Source of the DNA: a virus | DNA length: 20,363 bases | Strand: one strand, 5' to 3' | Virus record (IMG/VR): IMGVR_UViG_3300010883_000674 | Span: 1 to 20,363 of that record | Shown: positions 1 to 12,843 of the stretch, piece by piece | How positions within the stretch are numbered: position 1 is the first letter of the stretch | How the letters are laid out: each line of letters begins with the position of its first letter | The notes under the pieces: generated by a model | What the model was told of the DNA's origin: nothing | Databases searched by the model: none | Seen by the model: the letters and a program-made list of their open reading frames with translations, nothing else | Translations under genes and position numbers: made by a program

Positions 1-876
1 AGGGTGATAGAAGGACTCAAGAAAGACGGACTATCTTGGTTCAGACCTTGGAACGGAGGAGCTAACAATCCTATGAACCACAAATACGAGAGCGACTACA
101 AAGGCTTCAACATATTTTGGCTAAATATGGTATGCGAGTCTCAGGGTTACAAGCATAACGAGTGGCTAACCTACAAGCAAGGTCAGGAGATGGGCTACGA
201 CCTTAAGAAGGGCTCGAAAGCAGGAGAGCAATTCGTAATCTATTGGATGGTCTCATACAAGCATAAGGAGACAGGGAAATTCTACAGCGAAGGTCAGCTA
301 AAGAAGGCAGGTATCAGCAAGAGTGCCTGTTCTGAGAATTGGAATATGCGATACTACAACGTATTCAATATCGCTCAGTTCGAGGGAGACATCGCTCCTA
401 AGAGGACTCCGATTAAGGCGAGTAAATTCAGCCCTATCAAACAGGCAGAGAAAATCCTGAAGGGATACAAGGGACAGCCTACCCTGAAACACGCAGGAGA
501 CCGAGCGTACTACCAACCTGCTATGCACCACGTTCAGATGCCTCTGAAGGACTCCTTCGTTACCCCTGACGATTACTACAAGACGCTCTTCCACGAGCTA
601 ACGCACAGCACAGGTCACTCAAGCCTACTCAAGAGAAAGGGGATAACAGACCTGCAGGGCTTCGGGACTGACTCATACTGCAAGGAGGAGTTAATCGCAG
701 AGCTTGGAAGTGAGTACCTAGTCGGCATCACAGGGATTAATCCTAAGGACAACGAGGCTAACGCTCAGGCATACATCAATGGATGGATTAACAAGCTACA
801 GAACGAAGACCCTAAGCTAATCATATACGCATCACAACAGGCTATGAAAGCGGTAGACCTAATCACAGCAAAGTAG
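1..876 (+). CDS. ArdC-like antirestriction protein (5'-truncated by window edge)
   Basis: The frame is open from base 1, and the usual start of the family's N-terminal domain lies upstream, so the gene is probably cut by the window edge; a GTG at 4 exists but begins inside the domain. The N-terminal part (about residues 5-130) carries the aromatic/Pro-rich pattern of ArdC ssDNA-binding domains (WFRPW, N..Y.G.N, W.T..Q....G, KGSKAGE, YNVFNIAQ). The C-terminal part has a zincin-type metallopeptidase motif HELTH at 592-606, followed by an EELIAEL segment that could give the third metal ligand. In known ArdC proteins the first domain binds ssDNA, and the protein protects incoming DNA from restriction; the peptidase-like domain is typical of polyvalent and phage proteins. 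Here it opens an early region upstream of small genes. I am fairly sure of the family; the role in antirestriction is inferred from the family. Confidence 0.8.
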   Translation, partial: RVIEGLKKDGLSWFRPWNGGANNPMNHKYESDYKGFNIFWLNMVCESQGYKHNEWLTYKQGQEMGYDLKKGSKAGEQFVIYWMVSYKHKETGKFYSEGQLKKAGISKSACSENWNMRYYNVFNIAQFEGDIAPKRTPIKASKFSPIKQAEKILKGYKGQPTLKHAGDRAYYQPAMHHVQMPLKDSFVTPDDYYKTLFHELTHSTGHSSLLKRKGITDLQGFGTDSYCKEELIAELGSEYLVGITGINPKDNEANAQAYINGWINKLQNEDPKLIIYASQQAMKAVDLITAK

Positions 877-4451: not shown

Positions 4452-5155
4452 TGGAGAGGCAATTCAAAGGTATATGGATACCTGCTCACATATGGCTCAG
4501 GATGGACTTAACGGCAATCGATAAAGTCCTGTTAGCTGACATAGATTCCTTCACAGGTAACGGAAAGCTATTCTATAAAAGCAATGCGACACTTACGAAA
4601 GAGTTAGGAGTATCCGAGAGCACCGTTAAGAGGAGCGTGAAGACACTTTCAACCCTTCGCCTAGTGGAGTTGTCAGGAAATACACGAAAGCGTCTCATAC
4701 GCTCTCTAGTTAACCCTGATGATTCAGGTCATATTGGGGGTAATTCGGTTCAAGATGGTTCTGATAAGGTTCAGGATGAGCCTACATTAGGTTCAAATTC
4801 AACACCTACTAATTCATCTATTAGTTCAATCATTAATCCATTACCTGACCTCCCTGTGAATTGGGATAACAATACTTTTAGGGGTACTTGGGGTATGTGG
4901 TTAGACGAACGAAAGGAGCGTAGGTATGGAAGGTACACACCTCGTGGAGAGAAGGCAGCAATACATAAGCTGTTTATCGAGAGCGAAGAGAATCAGGATA
5001 TTGCTATCCAAATGATAAATGAATCAATAGCTAACGGATGGAGAGGAATCTTCCCATTAAAGAATCAGAAAAATGAACGAAATAGCACTAAAGACTTCAG
5101 TAGCGATGAGTATAGCGATTATCTCAAAGCCATCGATGACGGCACTAACAGCTAG
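4451..5155 (+). CDS. Winged-helix replication initiation-type protein (DnaD/phage O-like)
   Basis: I chose the ATG at 4451, which overlaps the upstream TAA and begins MERQFKGIWIPAHIWL, over the in-frame ATG at 4439. Residues about 15-75 form a winged helix with LTAIDKVLLADIDSF, LFYKSNATLTKELGVSESTV and a KRSVKTLSTLRLVEL wing, the domain that starts many phage replication proteins. A polar Ser/Asn/Thr-rich linker follows (about residues 95-130), then a second helical domain (WGMWLDERKERRYGRYTPRG, later IAIQMINESIANGWRGIFPL) of the type found in DnaD-like/replication O proteins that bind origin DNA and load the helicase. Length (234 aa) fits. The 3' end overlaps the next gene by 83 nt. The exact family is uncertain. 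Confidence 0.7.
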   Translation: MERQFKGIWIPAHIWLRMDLTAIDKVLLADIDSFTGNGKLFYKSNATLTKELGVSESTVKRSVKTLSTLRLVELSGNTRKRLIRSLVNPDDSGHIGGNSVQDGSDKVQDEPTLGSNSTPTNSSISSIINPLPDLPVNWDNNTFRGTWGMWLDERKERRYGRYTPRGEKAAIHKLFIESEENQDIAIQMINESIANGWRGIFPLKNQKNERNSTKDFSSDEYSDYLKAIDDGTNS

Positions 5156-5639
5156 TGACGCTTGGAATCACGGAAGTAACGTAAGGTCAGCAATGAGGTA
5201 TGAGCCGAAGATGACTCACGTTGCCCTTATGGCACTCCTGAAGGACGCGATTGATTACCTTGACTTCAATAAAACGATAACAGGTACTCAGAACTTCATA
5301 GATGCTGTAAATTATCTAATTGAGACATTCCCTGTTATGAAGATAGAGGAATGGAAGGTCATAATGACACGGCTCAAAGCAGGTAAGTACGGCAAGATGT
5401 ATGAGAGATTGAAGCTACCTGAGATAGTGGAGATATTTCAGCAGTACGAAGGCGAAAGAGCCGAGATGATGGAACGAGATTACAGGAGGGATAAAGAGAC
5501 ACCCCCTCCTCCATTGTCTGATGAGCAGAGCAGCCTAATGAAGCGATTGCTAGTTGACCTGAAGTTACCTGAGGATGACACAGATGATAAGGGAAGGTGG
5601 GAGCACATACCATATCCTAATTCCCCTGACGATAACTAA
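5073..5639 (+). CDS. Replication-region protein of unknown function, 188 aa
   Basis: This is a helical, charged protein that I recognise as resembling a DUF group common beside replication genes in Bacteroidota phages, but it has no defined activity. Its best marks are the central segments TGTQNFIDAVNYLIETFPVM, KIEEWKVIMTRLKAGKYGKM and YERLKLPEIVEIFQQYEGER; the last two form an amphipathic helical block. A short Pro-rich acidic tail (ETPPPPLSDEQ) ends it. It starts inside the previous gene; an ATG at 5106 is a possible alternative start that would shorten it by 11 residues. Position between the winged-helix replication protein and NinG suggests a helicase-loader-like or accessory role, which is inference only. 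Confidence 0.55.
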   Translation: MNEIALKTSVAMSIAIISKPSMTALTASDAWNHGSNVRSAMRYEPKMTHVALMALLKDAIDYLDFNKTITGTQNFIDAVNYLIETFPVMKIEEWKVIMTRLKAGKYGKMYERLKLPEIVEIFQQYEGERAEMMERDYRRDKETPPPPLSDEQSSLMKRLLVDLKLPEDDTDDKGRWEHIPYPNSPDDN

Positions 5640-5662
5640 AGATTATTTTGTATATTGCGAGT

Positions 5663-6070
5663 ATGGCGACCTCGAGACAGAAGCTAGTTAAGGACTTGGA
5701 CAAGGTATTCTCACGATTCATTAGAATGAGAGTATCAGATGATTCAGGGTATAGCGAATGTTTCACCTGTGGGAAGACGGCTAAATGGAAGGAGGGAGAC
5801 GCAGGTCACTTTATGGGACGTGGTGCATTCGCAACTAGATGGGATGAAAAAAATGTTCAATTTCAATGTAAGAGATGTAACATATTCCGTCACGGAGAGC
5901 AGTACCTGTTTTCCGTTAACCTAAATAGAGAATACGGGGAGGGGACATCAGATTCCCTCCTCAGATATTCCAAGCAGTCAAAGAAATACGGAGTAGTGGA
6001 GCTTACCGAGATGATAATGACGTACAAAGATAAAGTTGAAGAACTCAGAGCATCTAAAGGATTGGAATAA
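5663..6070 (+). CDS. NinG/Rap-like recombination protein with zinc-binding Cys cluster
   Basis: The ATG at 5663 is preferred to an in-frame TTG at 5648. The basic N-terminal 25 residues (ATSRQKLVKDLDKVFSRFIR) lead into a Cys-His zinc core: CFTCGKTAKWKEGDAGHFMG, then R.AFATRWDEKNVQFQCKRCN, where the two CxxC pairs and the GHF His match the phage lambda NinG (Rap) family, an HNH-like fold. Lambda Rap is a structure-specific endonuclease that helps recombination. Length (135 aa) is shorter than lambda NinG (about 200 aa), as in many phage homologues. The 3' end overlaps the sigma-like gene by 35 nt. Its place after the replication genes fits. Confidence 0.75.
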   Translation: MATSRQKLVKDLDKVFSRFIRMRVSDDSGYSECFTCGKTAKWKEGDAGHFMGRGAFATRWDEKNVQFQCKRCNIFRHGEQYLFSVNLNREYGEGTSDSLLRYSKQSKKYGVVELTEMIMTYKDKVEELRASKGLE

Positions 6071-7360: not shown

Positions 7361-7590
7361 TGACACCGAGACGAGCAAAGAGATACATCAACACCTCGAA
7401 TGATTGGATATTATTCGCTGTTGAGGAGAAGGGAGACCAACATTCCTACAGAGTAATAATGAGCAGGGAAGAAGCGTGGGAGATTCTGCTTAACTTAGCC
7501 ATAACAGATTACCCTATCAGAGAAACATTAAGAAATATATTAAATACAGCAGATGACTACATTAAAAATCAACCTAATCCTCCCGAATGA
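7360..7590 (+). CDS. Small hypothetical protein, 76 aa
   Basis: I do not recognise it. It starts with the A shared by the upstream TAA (TAATG at 7358-7362). The product has a basic N-terminus (TPRRAKRYINTSNDW), a short beta-like stretch (ILFAVEEKGDQHSYRVIMS) and a helical second half (REEAWEILLNLAITDYPIRE) that ends in a polar tail (IKNQPNPPE). It has no metal, nucleotide or membrane motif. It may partner the DnaA-like or the ParB-like protein between which it sits; the 38-nt overlap with the ParB-like gene supports coupling. Confidence 0.5.
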   Translation: MTPRRAKRYINTSNDWILFAVEEKGDQHSYRVIMSREEAWEILLNLAITDYPIRETLRNILNTADDYIKNQPNPPE

Positions 7591-8122
7591 GGATAACCCG
7601 AGAACTATTCGTGAATCTAGTTTCAAGAAATTAGTTAAATCAATCAAGGACTTCCCTGAGATGCTTGAAGCACGACCTATTGTTATCAATCCTGATAACG
7701 TGGTGATAGGAGGCAATATGAGATTAGCTGCAGCGAAGGAAGCAGGGCTAAAAGAAGTGCCTGTACATAAGGTAACTTGGGCTAAGGCTAAAAGAGCTGA
7801 GTTTATTATTAAGGATAACGTCTCATACGGAGAGTGGGATTGGGATATGTTAGCGAACGAATGGGATAACGTCAAGATGGAAGAATGGGGGTTAGACGTT
7901 TGGACACCTGAGACAAATGTAGACTACTCAATCCTCGATGAGGAGTACGGAGCACTTGATGAGACCGTCAAGGAGATGCAAGAGGGAGTCAAGAGGGCAA
8001 TCCAAATAGAGTTTGAAGGCGATGACTACACGACAGCATTAACGTTAGCGAATGGGCTTAGAAAGGACGGAGTCTATGTCGGAGGATTACTCATTGAAGC
8101 GATGAAGAAGTGCGTTGGATAG
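7553..8122 (+). CDS. ParB/Srx-like nuclease-type domain protein
   Basis: The first 115 residues form a ParB N-terminal-like domain: LKINLILPNEDNPRTI, SSFKKLVKSIKDFPEMLEAR and, as the signature, VIGGNMRLAAAKEAG (residues 51-65, with the GGNMR loop that binds nucleotide in this fold), then VPVHKVTW and a FIIKDNVSYGEWDWDMLANEW end typical of phage ParB-like proteins near DNA-modifying enzymes. The C-terminal 60 residues (VKRAIQIEFEGDDYTTALTL, VYVGGLLIEAMKKC) form a small unrelated domain. Such proteins may bind or nick DNA, or bind CTP. This gene opens the predicted base-modification cassette and overlaps the PLP enzyme gene by 13 nt, which suggests it helps target or assist modification. Confidence 0.75.
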   Translation: MTTLKINLILPNEDNPRTIRESSFKKLVKSIKDFPEMLEARPIVINPDNVVIGGNMRLAAAKEAGLKEVPVHKVTWAKAKRAEFIIKDNVSYGEWDWDMLANEWDNVKMEEWGLDVWTPETNVDYSILDEEYGALDETVKEMQEGVKRAIQIEFEGDDYTTALTLANGLRKDGVYVGGLLIEAMKKCVG

Positions 8123-9048
8123 ACACCATACACGACCTAACTCCTGTTGAGATAGTTGATGGGATGACATTCAAGAGGGATGACAAGTTCGCTCCTCTTG
8201 GGTATGGTGATATTAATGGAGCAAAGCTGAGACAGGCAATATGGCTCGTTGATGGATGGGTTAAGCGAGGAGTTAAAGGCATCGTGAGTGGCTCGGTATC
8301 ACAGTCCCCTCAACACGCATTCATATCTGAGATTTGTAAGCACTATCGAATAGGCTGCGTGATTACTCACTCCAAGAAGAAGATAGAGGAGAAAGATTCC
8401 CCCTATTTATTCAGAGCAAAGAGGCTCGGAGCTAAGATGCTGTACTCAAAGGTGGGATACGCAAAGACATTAGGGGCATTAGCAAGGAAGACATTGAAGC
8501 TACTACCTGACCACGAGTTCCTAGAGACGAATATCACGCTTGAAGACAACGTGAATACGTGGGAAGAGATAGAAGCGTTCCATTCTGTTGGAGCAGAGCA
8601 AGTTAGGAACATACCGAGTAGCGTCAATAGGTTGGTTATTCCCTGCGGTAGCTGTAACTCATCTACATCAATCTTGTATGGGCTTCTGAAGTACCCTAAG
8701 CCTAACTTAAAAGAGATAATACTGATGGGGATAGGCAACCACGGAAGCAATAACATAGAGTACATTGAGCACAGGCTGAAGCACATATGCGCAACCAAAG
8801 GTATTGACACCGAGGGAGTGTATGATTGGAGCTTTGAGGGACTAAAGGGCTTCAGACATTCGATGCGGTATGAGAACCTGAATGGAACAGGGTATTGTCA
8901 GTATTCTGATACGTTTCACGAGAAAGCAGGTAGCATTTACTTCCACCCCCGATACGAAGGTAAGTGCATCAGGTATTTTCGTCAGAGAATGAAAGAGCAT
9001 TGGAATGAGAAGACATTATTTTGGATAGTAGGGAGCGACATAAGATGA
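8110..9048 (+). CDS. Fold-type II PLP-dependent enzyme (ACC deaminase/cysteine desulfhydrase-like)
   Basis: Start is GTG at 8110. The 312-residue product follows the layout of fold-type II PLP enzymes: TPVEIVDGMTFKRDDKFAPL at the N-terminus, the putative Schiff-base lysine K39 in DINGAKLRQA (family form GGNKxRK), the substrate loop GSVSQSPQH (residues 61-69; family form S.QSNH), and the phosphate-cup region CGSCNSST (179-186; family form GSGGT). The family carries out elimination, replacement or deamination at amino acid alpha/beta carbons. The phosphate loop with two Cys is unusual. Being between a ParB-like protein and a DNA-base kinase-type protein, it most likely processes an amino acid attached to, or used for, a modified base; this is inference. 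Its stop overlaps the next start (ATGA). Confidence 0.7.
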   Translation: MRWIDTIHDLTPVEIVDGMTFKRDDKFAPLGYGDINGAKLRQAIWLVDGWVKRGVKGIVSGSVSQSPQHAFISEICKHYRIGCVITHSKKKIEEKDSPYLFRAKRLGAKMLYSKVGYAKTLGALARKTLKLLPDHEFLETNITLEDNVNTWEEIEAFHSVGAEQVRNIPSSVNRLVIPCGSCNSSTSILYGLLKYPKPNLKEIILMGIGNHGSNNIEYIEHRLKHICATKGIDTEGVYDWSFEGLKGFRHSMRYENLNGTGYCQYSDTFHEKAGSIYFHPRYEGKCIRYFRQRMKEHWNEKTLFWIVGSDIR

Positions 9049-10550
9049 CAGATAACCGATTACCTGAGAACAGGAGGAAAGTATTCCTCGACTTCTATGA
9101 GTTCCACCTCAAATATGGGGCTCACGCAGGAGCAGTTTATTATGCCTTCCCTTACCTGTTTAAGACGCTTCAGATGACCGAAGAGCAGAAGCTATGGTTT
9201 GTATTCATTAATGGGAATACTCAGAACGTGGTAACGACATACAGAATATACTCAGCATTCCCCTCCATTGATTTAATTAGAGATTCGAGAGAGGAATTAG
9301 AGCGATGGTTCGAGACTAATTACAATAACTTGCCGTGGGATACAGACAGGAGATACACGAGGACTCGATTCATTTGGAGCGTATCGAATTACATTGAGCA
9401 ATTAGACGGAAAGACTCAGGCAGATTACTTCGCTCAGTTCACGACAGGTCAGCATAAGTATCAGAACTTCAGCCTGTTATGGGATGTCATTATTAATAAG
9501 TTCGTCTCCTTTGGGAGGCTATCAACTTTCAGCTACTTGGAATACCTGAGATTAGCAGGGATAAATGTAGACTGTGATTGGTTATTCTTTGAGGACATAA
9601 CAGGGAGCAAATCTCACAGGAATGGATTATGCAAGGTGCTAGGTCGGGATGACTTGGATTGGACTAAAGATAACACCCCAAACTACACCCCTGAGATACT
9701 TGATTGGCTGAATGACGAGGGCAACGAATTGATTAAGGAGGCTAAAGCAACGATTGACCATCCTGATGTATCATACTTCACGTTAGAAACGACATTATGC
9801 TGTTACAAGGGATGGCATCGGGTTAACAGGCGTTACCCTAATGTGTACAACGATATGTTCTATGACAGGATAAGGAAAGCAGAGGAATTATGGGGAGATA
9901 AACTAAACGTATTTTGGGACTGCCGTAAGGAACTGCTACCTAAGTCGTTAAGATTAGAAGAGAACATACTTGACAAGGGGTTAAGTAAAGAGAAACAGAA
10001 TCACTACAGATTAACAGGACAAGTAATAATGATGGAAGAGTTCGGATACAAGGCAGACAAGACGTGGCTCAGGAACTGCATACTCATCGTGGGTAAATGC
10101 GGAGTAGGCAAAACGTGGGTAATGTCTCAGCTCCTAAAAGGGCAGGAGGTACAAACGCAGAAGCTAGGCAAGTTCCTCTTCCACGAGACACCTGATTACA
10201 TCGTGGTAGGCAAGTACGATGGGAGTGTATTTCAGGGGAGCGACAGACTCTCGATGAGCGTAATGACAGACTTGGACAGGATGCTCAGATACGTCCATTC
10301 GGTGGACAAGGTAGCAGTCTTTGAAGGAGACCGATTCACTAACTCCAATTTCATAGCTAAGGCGAACCCTGCAATAGTCAAGGTTCTCGGTGATGGGAGG
10401 AACGGCAGATTGAAGCGAGGCTCAAATCAGACTGAGCGTCATTTAAAGAGCATTTCAACTAGGGTTGACAACATCGTTAGCCATTGTGATACAAAAGATT
10501 CAGAACATTGCTTAGAATACCTTAAAACACTTCTCAATGAAAACGATTAA
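9045..10550 (+). CDS. Helical domain + P-loop kinase: 5-hydroxymethyl-dU DNA kinase-like / aGPT-pyrophosphorylase-like
   Basis: ATG at 9045 overlaps the previous TGA (ATGA) and is preferred to TTG at 9021, giving 501 aa. The first ~310 residues are helical with aromatic/Arg-rich marks (FYEFHLKYGAHAGAVYYAFP, FINGNTQNVVTTYRIYSAFP, NNLPWDTDRRYTRTRF, GSKSHRNGLCKVLG) like the alpha-glutamyl/putrescinyl-thymine pyrophosphorylase clan, which includes the helical domain of 5-hmdU DNA kinase and the amino acid:DNA transferase. The C-terminal part is a P-loop kinase: Walker A GKCGVGKT (350-357) and an EGDR motif (427-430) in place of the catalytic Asp region. In thymidine hypermodification pathways this fusion phosphorylates hmdU in DNA for later replacement. 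No separate transferase is seen, so this protein might also do the transfer. Confidence 0.65.
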   Translation: MTDNRLPENRRKVFLDFYEFHLKYGAHAGAVYYAFPYLFKTLQMTEEQKLWFVFINGNTQNVVTTYRIYSAFPSIDLIRDSREELERWFETNYNNLPWDTDRRYTRTRFIWSVSNYIEQLDGKTQADYFAQFTTGQHKYQNFSLLWDVIINKFVSFGRLSTFSYLEYLRLAGINVDCDWLFFEDITGSKSHRNGLCKVLGRDDLDWTKDNTPNYTPEILDWLNDEGNELIKEAKATIDHPDVSYFTLETTLCCYKGWHRVNRRYPNVYNDMFYDRIRKAEELWGDKLNVFWDCRKELLPKSLRLEENILDKGLSKEKQNHYRLTGQVIMMEEFGYKADKTWLRNCILIVGKCGVGKTWVMSQLLKGQEVQTQKLGKFLFHETPDYIVVGKYDGSVFQGSDRLSMSVMTDLDRMLRYVHSVDKVAVFEGDRFTNSNFIAKANPAIVKVLGDGRNGRLKRGSNQTERHLKSISTRVDNIVSHCDTKDSEHCLEYLKTLLNEND

Positions 10551-11334
10551 ATTAGACCTCGTAAAGCACGATAGGAAGTCCTCTCAAGATTGTGAGTACA
10601 TAGAGCCAAACATAACAGAAGATTGTCTCCTAGAATCAGAAGGAGAGATTGTAGGCTTCTACATCAGGGACATAGATGATTATTCCCCCCGACTGAGTCA
10701 ACTGCTCTCAATAGCTAACGCTGAGTTCAGGTCAGATAACGTCCCTAAGCAATTCCTAGATAGGGCAGACGTGATTAAGCTCGGAGGTAACAGGACAGAG
10801 GCGAGGAAGAAAGGCACAGCACAATGGAGCACGATACTCGGCTCAGTTCCACCTAATGCAATGACAAGGAGACATTACAGGAACAGGGCAGCCGTGCATA
10901 ATCATACTCCTGCTCAGGTCTTCATCAAAGCGATGACAGCAGCAGCGATTGAATCAGGTAAGATAATCAAGGAGATTGCCCCCCAAATTTATCACAATCA
11001 ATTAAAGGTAATGGAGAGCATCTCAAAGGAGTGGAGATTCGGTGACCTGTTCACGAGCAGCATCTCAAACTTTAACATAGCAGCATCCTTCCATACCGAT
11101 GTCAGGAATGTAAAGGGAGCAGTAAACGTCATAATGACCAAGAGGAATAACAGCAAAGGAGGTTGCCTTCACGTACCTGATTACAATGCTACATTTGAAC
11201 AGGCAGATAACTCACTATTAGTTTATCCTGCGTGGAGGAATATGCACGGAGTAACACCAATAGTTCCAACGCATACAGATGGCTACCGCAATTCACTTAT
11301 ATTTTATTCATTAAAAGCATTCAAAGATGACTGA
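10537..11334 (+). CDS. TET/JBP-like Fe(II)/2-oxoglutarate dioxygenase (DNA thymine or methylcytosine hydroxylase)
   Basis: The 265-residue product carries the double-stranded beta-helix motif set of 2-oxoglutarate dioxygenases: H186-x-D188 in FHTDVRNV, distal H237 in WRNMHGVTP and R251 in YRNSLIF for 2-oxoglutarate. The sequence between (GGCLHVPDYNATFEQADNSL) has the GG.L..P.Y.....Q.. pattern typical of phage TET/JBP relatives, as does F(T)SSISNFN before the HxD. Known enzymes oxidise thymine to 5-hydroxymethyluracil or 5-methylcytosine to 5-hydroxymethylcytosine. As no DNA cytosine methyltransferase is seen here and the neighbour resembles a 5-hmdU kinase, thymine is the likelier substrate. 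It overlaps the kinase by 14 nt and the terminase small subunit by 8 nt. The ~150-residue N-terminal region is not a domain I recognise. Confidence 0.7.
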   Translation: MKTIKLDLVKHDRKSSQDCEYIEPNITEDCLLESEGEIVGFYIRDIDDYSPRLSQLLSIANAEFRSDNVPKQFLDRADVIKLGGNRTEARKKGTAQWSTILGSVPPNAMTRRHYRNRAAVHNHTPAQVFIKAMTAAAIESGKIIKEIAPQIYHNQLKVMESISKEWRFGDLFTSSISNFNIAASFHTDVRNVKGAVNVIMTKRNNSKGGCLHVPDYNATFEQADNSLLVYPAWRNMHGVTPIVPTHTDGYRNSLIFYSLKAFKDD

Positions 11335-11689
11335 CAAATCTGACACTAAAAAAGGAACACTCATTGAGGCATTAGGCAAATCATTGGGAGTAGTTTCAAC
11401 AGCCTGTAAATCAGTTAACATCTCAAGGGACACACACTACCGATGGATGAAGGAAGACTCAGACTACAAGGGCAAGGTAAGGGAGTTAGAGAACATTGCT
11501 CTAGACTTTGCTGAGAGCCACCTCCATCAGCTAATTAAAGACGGCATCCCTTCAGCTACGATATTCTTTCTCAAGACCAAAGGGAAGAGGAGAGGATACA
11601 TTGAGACGACTGACCTGCAGATAACAGAGAAGAAGCCCCTGACGTGGATGGATGAGGTATCAAGGAAAAAGAAGAGAGAGCAGAAGTGA
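11327..11689 (+). CDS. terS: Terminase small subunit-like HTH protein
   Basis: A helix-turn-helix lies in the first half (IEALGKSLGVVSTACKSVNI, then SRDTHYRWMKEDSDYKGKV), followed by ENIALDFAESHLHQLIKDGI and PSATIFFLKTKGKRRGY, the arrangement seen in phBC6A51-type phage terminase small subunits. The tail is basic and Lys-rich (VSRKKKREQK). It should recognise the packaging site and hand DNA to the large subunit. Its stop overlaps the large subunit's GTG (GTGA at 11686-11689), and its ATG overlaps the dioxygenase by 8 nt, so the modification cassette and packaging genes are co-translated. A regulator with an HTH is the alternative, but context favours the terminase. Confidence 0.75.
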   Translation: MTDKSDTKKGTLIEALGKSLGVVSTACKSVNISRDTHYRWMKEDSDYKGKVRELENIALDFAESHLHQLIKDGIPSATIFFLKTKGKRRGYIETTDLQITEKKPLTWMDEVSRKKKREQK

Positions 11690-12843
11690 CTCTCCCAACG
11701 ACATATTACCACGCTACTGAATCAGACGCAAAGATACAAGTCCATCAGGGAGGCACGAGGAGTGGAAAGACATACTCACTACTCACCTTCATAATAGAGT
11801 TCTGTTATCACAATGAAGGCGCAGGAGCAGTAGTCACAATATGCCGTAAGACATTCCCTGCTCTCAGGGCATCAGTAATGAGAGACTTCTTTGAGATACT
11901 TGAGAAGGAGGGTATGTACAGCCCCTCAGGTCATAACAAATCTGACAGCACTTATCAGCTGTATGGCAACCTAGTTGAGTTCATTTCAGTAGACCAACCT
12001 CAGAAGGTCAGAGGGAGGAAGAGAGACCTCCTGTTTATCAATGAGGCAAATGAGCTGAGCCTTGAAGAGTGGAGGCAATTAATCCTGAGAACCACAGGGC
12101 GTATCGTGATTGACTACAACCCCTCAGATGAGTTCCATTGGATTTACGACAATGTGATTGACAGGGATGATGCTCAGTTCTTTCAGACCACGTACAAGGA
12201 TAACCCCTTCCTAAACGAATCAGTCATTCAAGAGATTGAGCGATTCCAAGAGGTAGATGAGGACTTTTGGAAGGTGTATGGATTGGGTGAGAGGGGTGTG
12301 AACAGGAGCGCAGTACTCACGCATTGGAAGCAGGTCAAGACCATACCCCCCGAATACAAGCTAATGAATGTGGGGCTCGACTTCGGTTACACTAATGACG
12401 CAACAGCCATAGTTAAAGTGTACACAGACGGACACGGCTTCCTGTTAGATGAAGTATGTTACGCAACAGGCTTGACTAACGCAGCCATCGCTCAGGTAAT
12501 GAGGGACGCAGGGATTAAGCGAGAGGACTCTGTAATTGCCGATTGTGCTGAGCCAAAGAGCATAGATGATTTGCACGGACACGGCTTTAACATACACCCT
12601 TGCAGGAAGGGAGCAGACAGCATCAGGGCAGGGATAGACTTCCTCAGGTCAAGACCGCTATTCATCACCGAGAGGAGTGTGAACGGCATCAAAGAATTAA
12701 GGAACTACAAGTACAAGGAGGATAAGAACGGACGTATATTGAACGCACCTGTCGACCTGTTCAATCACTTTATCGATGCGTCACGTTACGCTATTACATT
12801 CAATCAGACTAACCCTAATTATGGGAGCTATGCTCTTGGGTAA
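11686..12843 (+). CDS. terL: Terminase large subunit (packaging ATPase and nuclease)
   Basis: GTG at 11686 fits the spacing (GTGA overlap). The 385-residue protein shows the two expected domains. ATPase: Walker A GGTRSGKT (residues 22-29), Arg-rich CRKTFPALRAS, Walker B LLFINE with catalytic E120, and a motif near RTTGRIVIDYNPSD. Nuclease: acidic residues D232 (GLDFGYTNDATA), D286 (VIADCAEP) and D364 (FNHFIDA), placed as in RNase H-like terminase nucleases. It packages DNA into the prohead and cuts at the end of a headful or at cos. It is shorter than many large terminases (about 420-500 aa) but complete. No portal gene follows, which is unusual. Confidence 0.9.
   Translation: MTLPTTYYHATESDAKIQVHQGGTRSGKTYSLLTFIIEFCYHNEGAGAVVTICRKTFPALRASVMRDFFEILEKEGMYSPSGHNKSDSTYQLYGNLVEFISVDQPQKVRGRKRDLLFINEANELSLEEWRQLILRTTGRIVIDYNPSDEFHWIYDNVIDRDDAQFFQTTYKDNPFLNESVIQEIERFQEVDEDFWKVYGLGERGVNRSAVLTHWKQVKTIPPEYKLMNVGLDFGYTNDATAIVKVYTDGHGFLLDEVCYATGLTNAAIAQVMRDAGIKREDSVIADCAEPKSIDDLHGHGFNIHPCRKGADSIRAGIDFLRSRPLFITERSVNGIKELRNYKYKEDKNGRILNAPVDLFNHFIDASRYAITFNQTNPNYGSYALG

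Follow-up and report, generated by a model that had tools for sequence, protein, structure and literature searches.

Phages whose hypermodification pathways have been studied encode base activation and base substitution as separate proteins. The reported pathway order runs from hmdU through a kinase to a transferase, and in M6 the 5-hydroxymethyluracil (hmU) is thought to arise in the nucleotide pool (PMC6449724). The M6 region encodes together an amino acid:DNA transferase (AADT, gp51), a PLP-type PALP enzyme (gp52) and a 5-hmdU-type kinase (gp54), and M6 also encodes a radical SAM protein (gp53), an HMUDK_hel protein (gp55) and a thymidylate synthase (gp58). In Salmonella phage ViI the AADT (Vi01_199) and the HMUD2 kinase (Vi01_196) are likewise separate genes, the kinase being of a different family (PF18747), while gp46/PUGT of Pseudomonas phage PaMx11 (8z2m, 8z2n), named 5-PmdU glycinyltransferase in the PDB title of 8z2m, is a single-domain protein. 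Mycobacterium phage Hangman (Bclasvirinae) has consecutive genes (1–4) of the ParB-like, TET/JBP, AADT/aGPT-Pplase2 and kinase types, and in Rhodococcus phage Tonitrus a cassette of ParB, TET-like, aGPT-Pplase2 and kinase genes has been described as a possible thymidine hypermodification system (PMC11955845); in both phages, AADT and kinase are separate genes.

The DNA analysed here (hereafter the window) is a virus record of 20,363 bases. It contains the M6-like combination of AADT, PLP-type enzyme and kinase, and the Hangman-like company of ParB-like and TET/JBP genes, but differs from both in that AADT and kinase form one chain, read from a single open frame that runs from its ATG to the stop (Table 1; an alternative TTG at 9021 would add 8 aa). 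It also differs from M6 in that this record, possibly a fragment, has a TET/JBP oxygenase instead of a thymidylate-synthase homologue. The ATGA overlap with the PLP-type gene, together with the start of the TET/JBP gene inside the 3′ end of the fused gene, marks a tight operon. We read the fused protein as a bifunctional DNA-base hypermodification enzyme, which would phosphorylate hmU in DNA and then swap the phosphate for an amino acid, and we put the probability of this reading at about three in four. An earlier note on this DNA had already drawn attention to the joined domains and had placed the Walker A motif at exactly the residues where it lies; it was correct on the architecture and careful on the identity of the parts. 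What it did not contain is that the fusion descends from neighbouring genes, is common to a whole group of contigs and lies next to a TET/JBP oxygenase gene. The type of cassette is already known, while the AADT-kinase fusion looks new: we found no description of it in the literature searched, a body of text that does not extend to the principal papers.

Table 1. Features of the hypermodification cassette and its surroundings in the window.
Feature	Position	Strand	Basis or remark
ArdC-like antirestriction protein	1..876		ArdcN + zincin-like metallopeptidase domain; cut by window start
ParB-like protein, usual cassette neighbour	7553..8122	+	PF02195 E 1.6e-5, just under cut-off; several ParB PHROGs
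PLP-dependent enzyme-like (PALP / phrog_3650), putative tailoring enzyme	8110..9048	+	PALP E 0.032, under cut-off; phrog_3650 E 2.7e-66
Fused AADT-kinase gene	9045..10550	+	501 aa; ATG overlaps stop of preceding PLP-enzyme gene (ATGA)
AADT domain, residues 1–330	9045..10034	+	PF18724; similarity to ViI Vi01_199; fold of 8z2m
Conserved AADT stretch ETTLCCYK...RRY, residues 248–264	9786..9836	+	Invariant columns in 27 AADT rows
Linker region, residues 331–344	10035..10076	+	Between AADT and kinase domains
P-loop kinase domain, residues 345–501	10077..10547	+	Profile matches; structural neighbours
Walker A motif GKCGVGKT, residues 350–357	10092..10115	+	Sequence motif
TET/JBP 2OG-Fe(II) dioxygenase	10537..11334	+	PF12851 45.7 bits vs cut-off 34.9
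Terminase small subunit-like, cassette boundary	11327..11689	+	PHROG-level match
Terminase large subunit, cassette boundary	11686..12843	+	Pfam-level match

By family match, the N-terminal half is a member of the AADT family. It matches PF18724 over residues 37–255 with 66.8 bits (cut-off 26.2, E 3.1e-18), and in BLASTP it is 28% identical over about 325 aa (E 4e-28) to ViI Vi01_199, which itself scores 197.6 bits on PF18724; a match of the fused protein to aGPT-Pplase3 is under the cut-off of that family. The helical domain of about 310 residues that the earlier note had assigned to the aGPT-pyrophosphorylase/AADT clan is indeed helical in our model but extends to about residue 330, and the clan assignment can be narrowed to PF18724 itself. 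In a 27-row AADT alignment that includes M6 gp51, columns G157, E248, C252, K255 and Y264 are invariant, and all are retained in the 11 fused copies described below. From this conservation we infer a catalytic role for the invariant residues of the stretch with E248, C252, K255 and Y264. A different assignment, in which this half is the helical domain of a 5-hmdU DNA kinase, was ruled out: the fused protein, unlike M6 gp55, does not match HMUDK_hel (PF18723) at E <= 0.1, and no similarity was found between gp55 and the N-terminal half.

Structural comparison with known AADT enzymes, which the earlier note had called for together with a look for their catalytic residues, led to the same family. 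The AlphaFold2 model of the fused protein (pLDDT 94.3, pTM 0.90) was built from 49 aligned sequences comprising the window and IMG/VR loci only, with no 8z2m, M6 or ViI sequence among them. The best PDB match of its N-terminal half is 8z2m (Z 17.0, 256 residues aligned, rmsd 3.6, 14% identity), for which Foldseek gives a probability of 1.00 and an E-value, modest when taken alone, of 0.021, and the top BFVD match is a protein from Mycobacterium phage Fortunato with an AADT domain. This half thus has in common with PaMx11 gp46/PUGT both its fold and an ETxLCxxK motif, the 8z2m stretch aligned to residues 248–264 reading ETILCKWK...GHYP in a PDB profile search. Profile matches of this kind involve some circularity, M6 gp51 having been among the aligned query sequences, whereas the structural match to 8z2m is free of it. 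With phmmer the whole fused protein found no sequence match in the PDB, and hhalign of a profile (alignment A5) against M6 gp51 alone was insignificant (1.4%), so that PF18724, the common motif and the fold are what connects the protein with M6.

Residues 345–501 are, to judge from profile comparisons, a P-loop kinase related to the 5-hmdU DNA kinases. Searched against Pfam as a single sequence, the kinase half reaches the cut-off of no kinase family, with PF18748 and PF18751 unlisted at E <= 0.1. As a profile of 18 relatives, however, it aligns in hhalign with Hangman gene 4 (98.2%, E 4.5e-14), a clear member of PF18751 (P-loop nucleotide kinase 3, 244 bits), and with M6 gp54 (88.3%, E 2.9e-6), of the 5-hmdU DNA kinase family PF18748 (65 bits); the comparison with ViI HMUD2 was insignificant (9.9%), and a profile search of the PDB returned mostly generic P-loop matches. 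The GxxGxGKT, GSDxLS and EGDR motifs are kept in all 11 fused copies. In structure, residues 339–501 are nearest to guanylate, uridine and polynucleotide kinases (highest Z 10.6), and the W-14 5-hmdU DNA kinase is among the BFVD matches (E 8.4e-4). As these structural neighbours are mostly nucleoside or nucleotide kinases, the domain might be thought to act on free nucleotides, with the AADT merely tethered to it and modification preceding polymerisation. We regard this as very improbable, given that polynucleotide kinases are also among the neighbours, that M6 gp54 belongs to a family named for a DNA kinase, and that the M6 kinase is reported, partly by citation of an unpublished result, to act on hmdU in DNA (PMC6449724).

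The fused frame is present in 11 contigs (the window, L005, L006, L007, L069, L070, L071, L072, L074, L076 and L086, the copy in L007 being 5′-truncated), which hold 9 distinct AADT domain sequences. The fused copies are 58–100% identical among themselves, and those of the 10 other contigs, all from IMG/VR, are 60–72% identical to the window. The distance from the TG(E/Q)VIMM motif to the P-loop motif is 19–20 residues in every copy, and 31 of 32 listed positions are identical in all 11, bar two residues absent from the cut end of L007, while the 32nd (residue 457) varies. Differences between the window and L005 at codon positions 1/2/3 (AADT half 0.29/0.14/0.57, kinase half 0.28/0.16/0.58) show a pattern of purifying selection acting similarly on both halves. 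Four-nucleotide overlaps between the separate genes are common in relatives, and a small indel introduced by sequencing or assembly could therefore merge two frames into one; recurrence of the same fused frame in 10 other contigs, with distinct AADT sequences and a linker of conserved length, makes such an error next to impossible, and we rejected it.

AADT and kinase genes also keep company where they are not fused. A count of 160 distinct AADT domains (at least 200 aa, from 415 loci, identical sequences counted once) gave 9 fused cases and 97 with a separate kinase gene within 200 nt; for another 36 the kinase stands farther off in the locus, and the other 18 have no recognised kinase (15 despite room, 3 truncated). 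Fused cases included, the two occur in the same locus for 142 of the 160. Loci were limited to at most the best 80 per scan (446 relatives in the broadest AADT scan), so that the count covers part of the family and is biased in favour of proteins resembling that of the window. This linkage of AADT and kinase supports the predicted functions of both families. In unfused relatives the AADT and kinase genes overlap by 4 nt for 28 of 89 distinct domains, so that fusion by a small change would be easy. A quick AADT tree, from which domains of less than 270 residues (and hence L007) were left out and in which identical sequences were counted once, places the fused group in one clade (8 rows, support 94) next to lineages whose kinase genes are separate and adjoining. 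On this sequence evidence, the fused gene is a derived form, made by joining AADT and kinase pathway genes that are neighbours, and often overlap, in relatives.

In phage isolates, the whole protein matched 376 of 50,697 records, and among the matches listed (the best 40 and 60 of the 376) AADT and kinase were separate or the AADT stood alone; the kinase half by itself gave weak matches in 4 isolate records. The statement in the earlier note that kinase and transferase are separate proteins in known pathways holds for known phages and for most relatives. Its remark that no other transferase was visible can be extended to the whole 20,363-base record and to all 11 fused records, possibly fragments: in each of them PF18724 and the kinase half of the window find a single match apiece. 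The first 32 related records gave one PF18724 match in 27, two in none and none in 5, and in these 5 the gene was nevertheless found by a looser AADT profile. Because the records are fragments, a second AADT gene or a thymidylate-synthase-type gene may lie outside them.

The kinase is not tied to an AADT in every lineage, since close kinase relatives without an AADT found in the record exist (L346, L348, L350, L359 and L343); none of 16 kinase-only records gave an AADT match, in a scan that carried no same-run positive control. In a kinase tree (domains of less than 115 residues or 120 bits left out, identical sequences counted once), the fused copies fall within a 14-row clade (support 99) alongside five AADT-less kinases; one of these five, from L343, branches among the fused rows, at a fork that the tree does not resolve. 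Some descendants may have lost the AADT half secondarily. Such relatives, and the precedent of M6, where a helical protein (gp55) is encoded beside the 5-hmdU kinase, lend something to the idea that the kinase half alone is catalytic and that the AADT-like half positions the DNA, the base either keeping its phosphate or being finished by a transferase encoded outside the fragment. We consider this unlikely, as the half in question matches PF18724 and not the gp55 family PF18723, the AADT-invariant residues are retained in every fused copy, and selection has constrained the two halves alike.

The remaining cassette genes bear on the source of the hydroxymethyl base. Residues H186, D188, H237 and R251 of the TET/JBP protein (HxD...H...R) are invariant in a 71-row alignment, as is Lys39 of the PLP-type enzyme in a 40-row alignment; the window's PLP-type protein has weak similarity to M6 gp52 (BLASTP E 0.004). 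Of the 29 AADT loci flanked on each side by 3.5 kb or more, 25 have TET genes, 26 kinases and 17 PLP-type genes. Across 58 distinct related records (32 + 30, with 4 shared; mostly fragments and not mutually independent), TET/JBP occurred in 51, a thymidylate-synthase-type gene in 3, both in none and neither in 4 (G005, G009, G022 and G048), with Tet_JBP above the family cut-off in 18 of the 32 and 26 of the 30. No thymidylate-synthase-type gene was found in the window record or the 10 other fused records, all possibly fragments, and no C5-cytosine methylase in the 32 related records. That TET/JBP and thymidylate-synthase-type genes never occurred together, and that the methylase was not found, favours oxidation of thymine in DNA, and suggests that in these phages thymine is oxidised within the DNA.

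Many TET enzymes use 5-methylcytosine, and the modified base might thus be cytosine, with the TET protein oxidising 5-methylcytosine and the fused enzyme working on 5-hydroxymethylcytosine. Besides the methylase result, the AADT and kinase relatives sit in families named for thymidine pathways, and the 5-hmU DNA kinase whose tests are reported in PMC6457204 did not phosphorylate hmC; a cytosine pathway accordingly seems to us improbable.

In the thymine-based reading that we prefer, the TET/JBP dioxygenase would hydroxylate thymine in phage DNA to 5-hydroxymethyluracil, the C-terminal P-loop domain would, by homology, phosphorylate the hydroxymethyl group in DNA, and the N-terminal AADT domain, given its fold, family and conserved residues, would displace the phosphate with a free amino acid, a transfer modelled on the glycinyltransferase activity in the title of 8z2m. 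The PLP-type enzyme may then trim the attached amino acid. With the halves joined, the charged phosphate intermediate might persist only briefly. Phosphorylation of hmU in the template is reported to reduce transcription to 37% of that from unmodified DNA (PMC6457204), which suggests why coupling of the steps could help the phage. We hold only tentatively, and with more doubt than belief, the further proposal that one polypeptide activates the TET/JBP-made hydroxymethyl base in DNA and passes the phosphorylated base to its own transferase unreleased; if true, a coupled activate-and-substitute machine would stand in for the nucleotide-pool route and the individual enzymes that known phages use. 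The fusion provides one gene in which coupling of the two steps at one and the same base could be tested, and a single enzyme might in this way turn hmU-DNA into DNA that bears amines; its cassette also links oxidation by TET/JBP with the amino-acid transferase pathway.

Several variants of the cassette were observed in the related loci. Three records (L346, L348 and L391, with kinases at 2995, 2562 and 3004) have a compact ParB-kinase-TET order in which the kinase directly follows ParB, with no AADT and no PLP-enzyme match, and in L346 and L348 TerS comes next; these cassettes either have phosphomethyl-dU as end product or make use of another transferase. Scans of genome contigs yielded no locus in the first instance and one in the second, an Actinomycetota MAG contig (L139, RGDC01000007.1) with the order ParB-TET-AADT-PLP-kinase-terminase, which probably stems from a phage or prophage and was binned with a bacterial MAG. 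In L040 and L057, the AADT gene is immediately preceded by another ORF (1758–2798 and 4901–5941, respectively) that matches the iterated AADT profile; that of L040 has no credible Pfam family, and the same slot in L038, called PLP-enzyme-like, is also without a Pfam match.

Other long proteins resemble the fusion to varying degrees. The BFVD match A0A6J4EHZ2 (590 aa) may be an independent AADT-kinase fusion, while A0A9E8MBP3, apparently from Lysinibacillus phage M5_0031, was rejected as one, its AADT match (22.8 bits) being under the cut-off and a kinase match lacking. A 639-aa protein of Lysinibacillus phage vB_LfM_LysYB2 (L207, 392–2311) has a weak AADT match in front and a C-terminal part without family assignment; genes for a 5-hmdU kinase and an HMUDK_hel protein are close by. 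Two long kinase ORFs (L274, 3633–4997; L249, 3163–4194) have N-terminal extensions that overlap neighbours in another frame, and look like start-codon artefacts, not true fusions.

Finally, in Glutamicibacter phage Montesquieu (L003) two tandem P-loop nucleotide kinase 3 genes (7909–9102) adjoin AADT-like and PLP-type genes; this genome has a gene of the thymidylate-synthase type and gave no TET match. The kinase of the cassette carries the annotation adenylate kinase or terminase small subunit in Bclasvirinae mycobacteriophages (L002 and others), and the PHROGs matched by the kinase and TET proteins of the window include some with the names terminase small subunit and queuine tRNA-ribosyltransferase; for cassette genes, all three names are probable misannotations.
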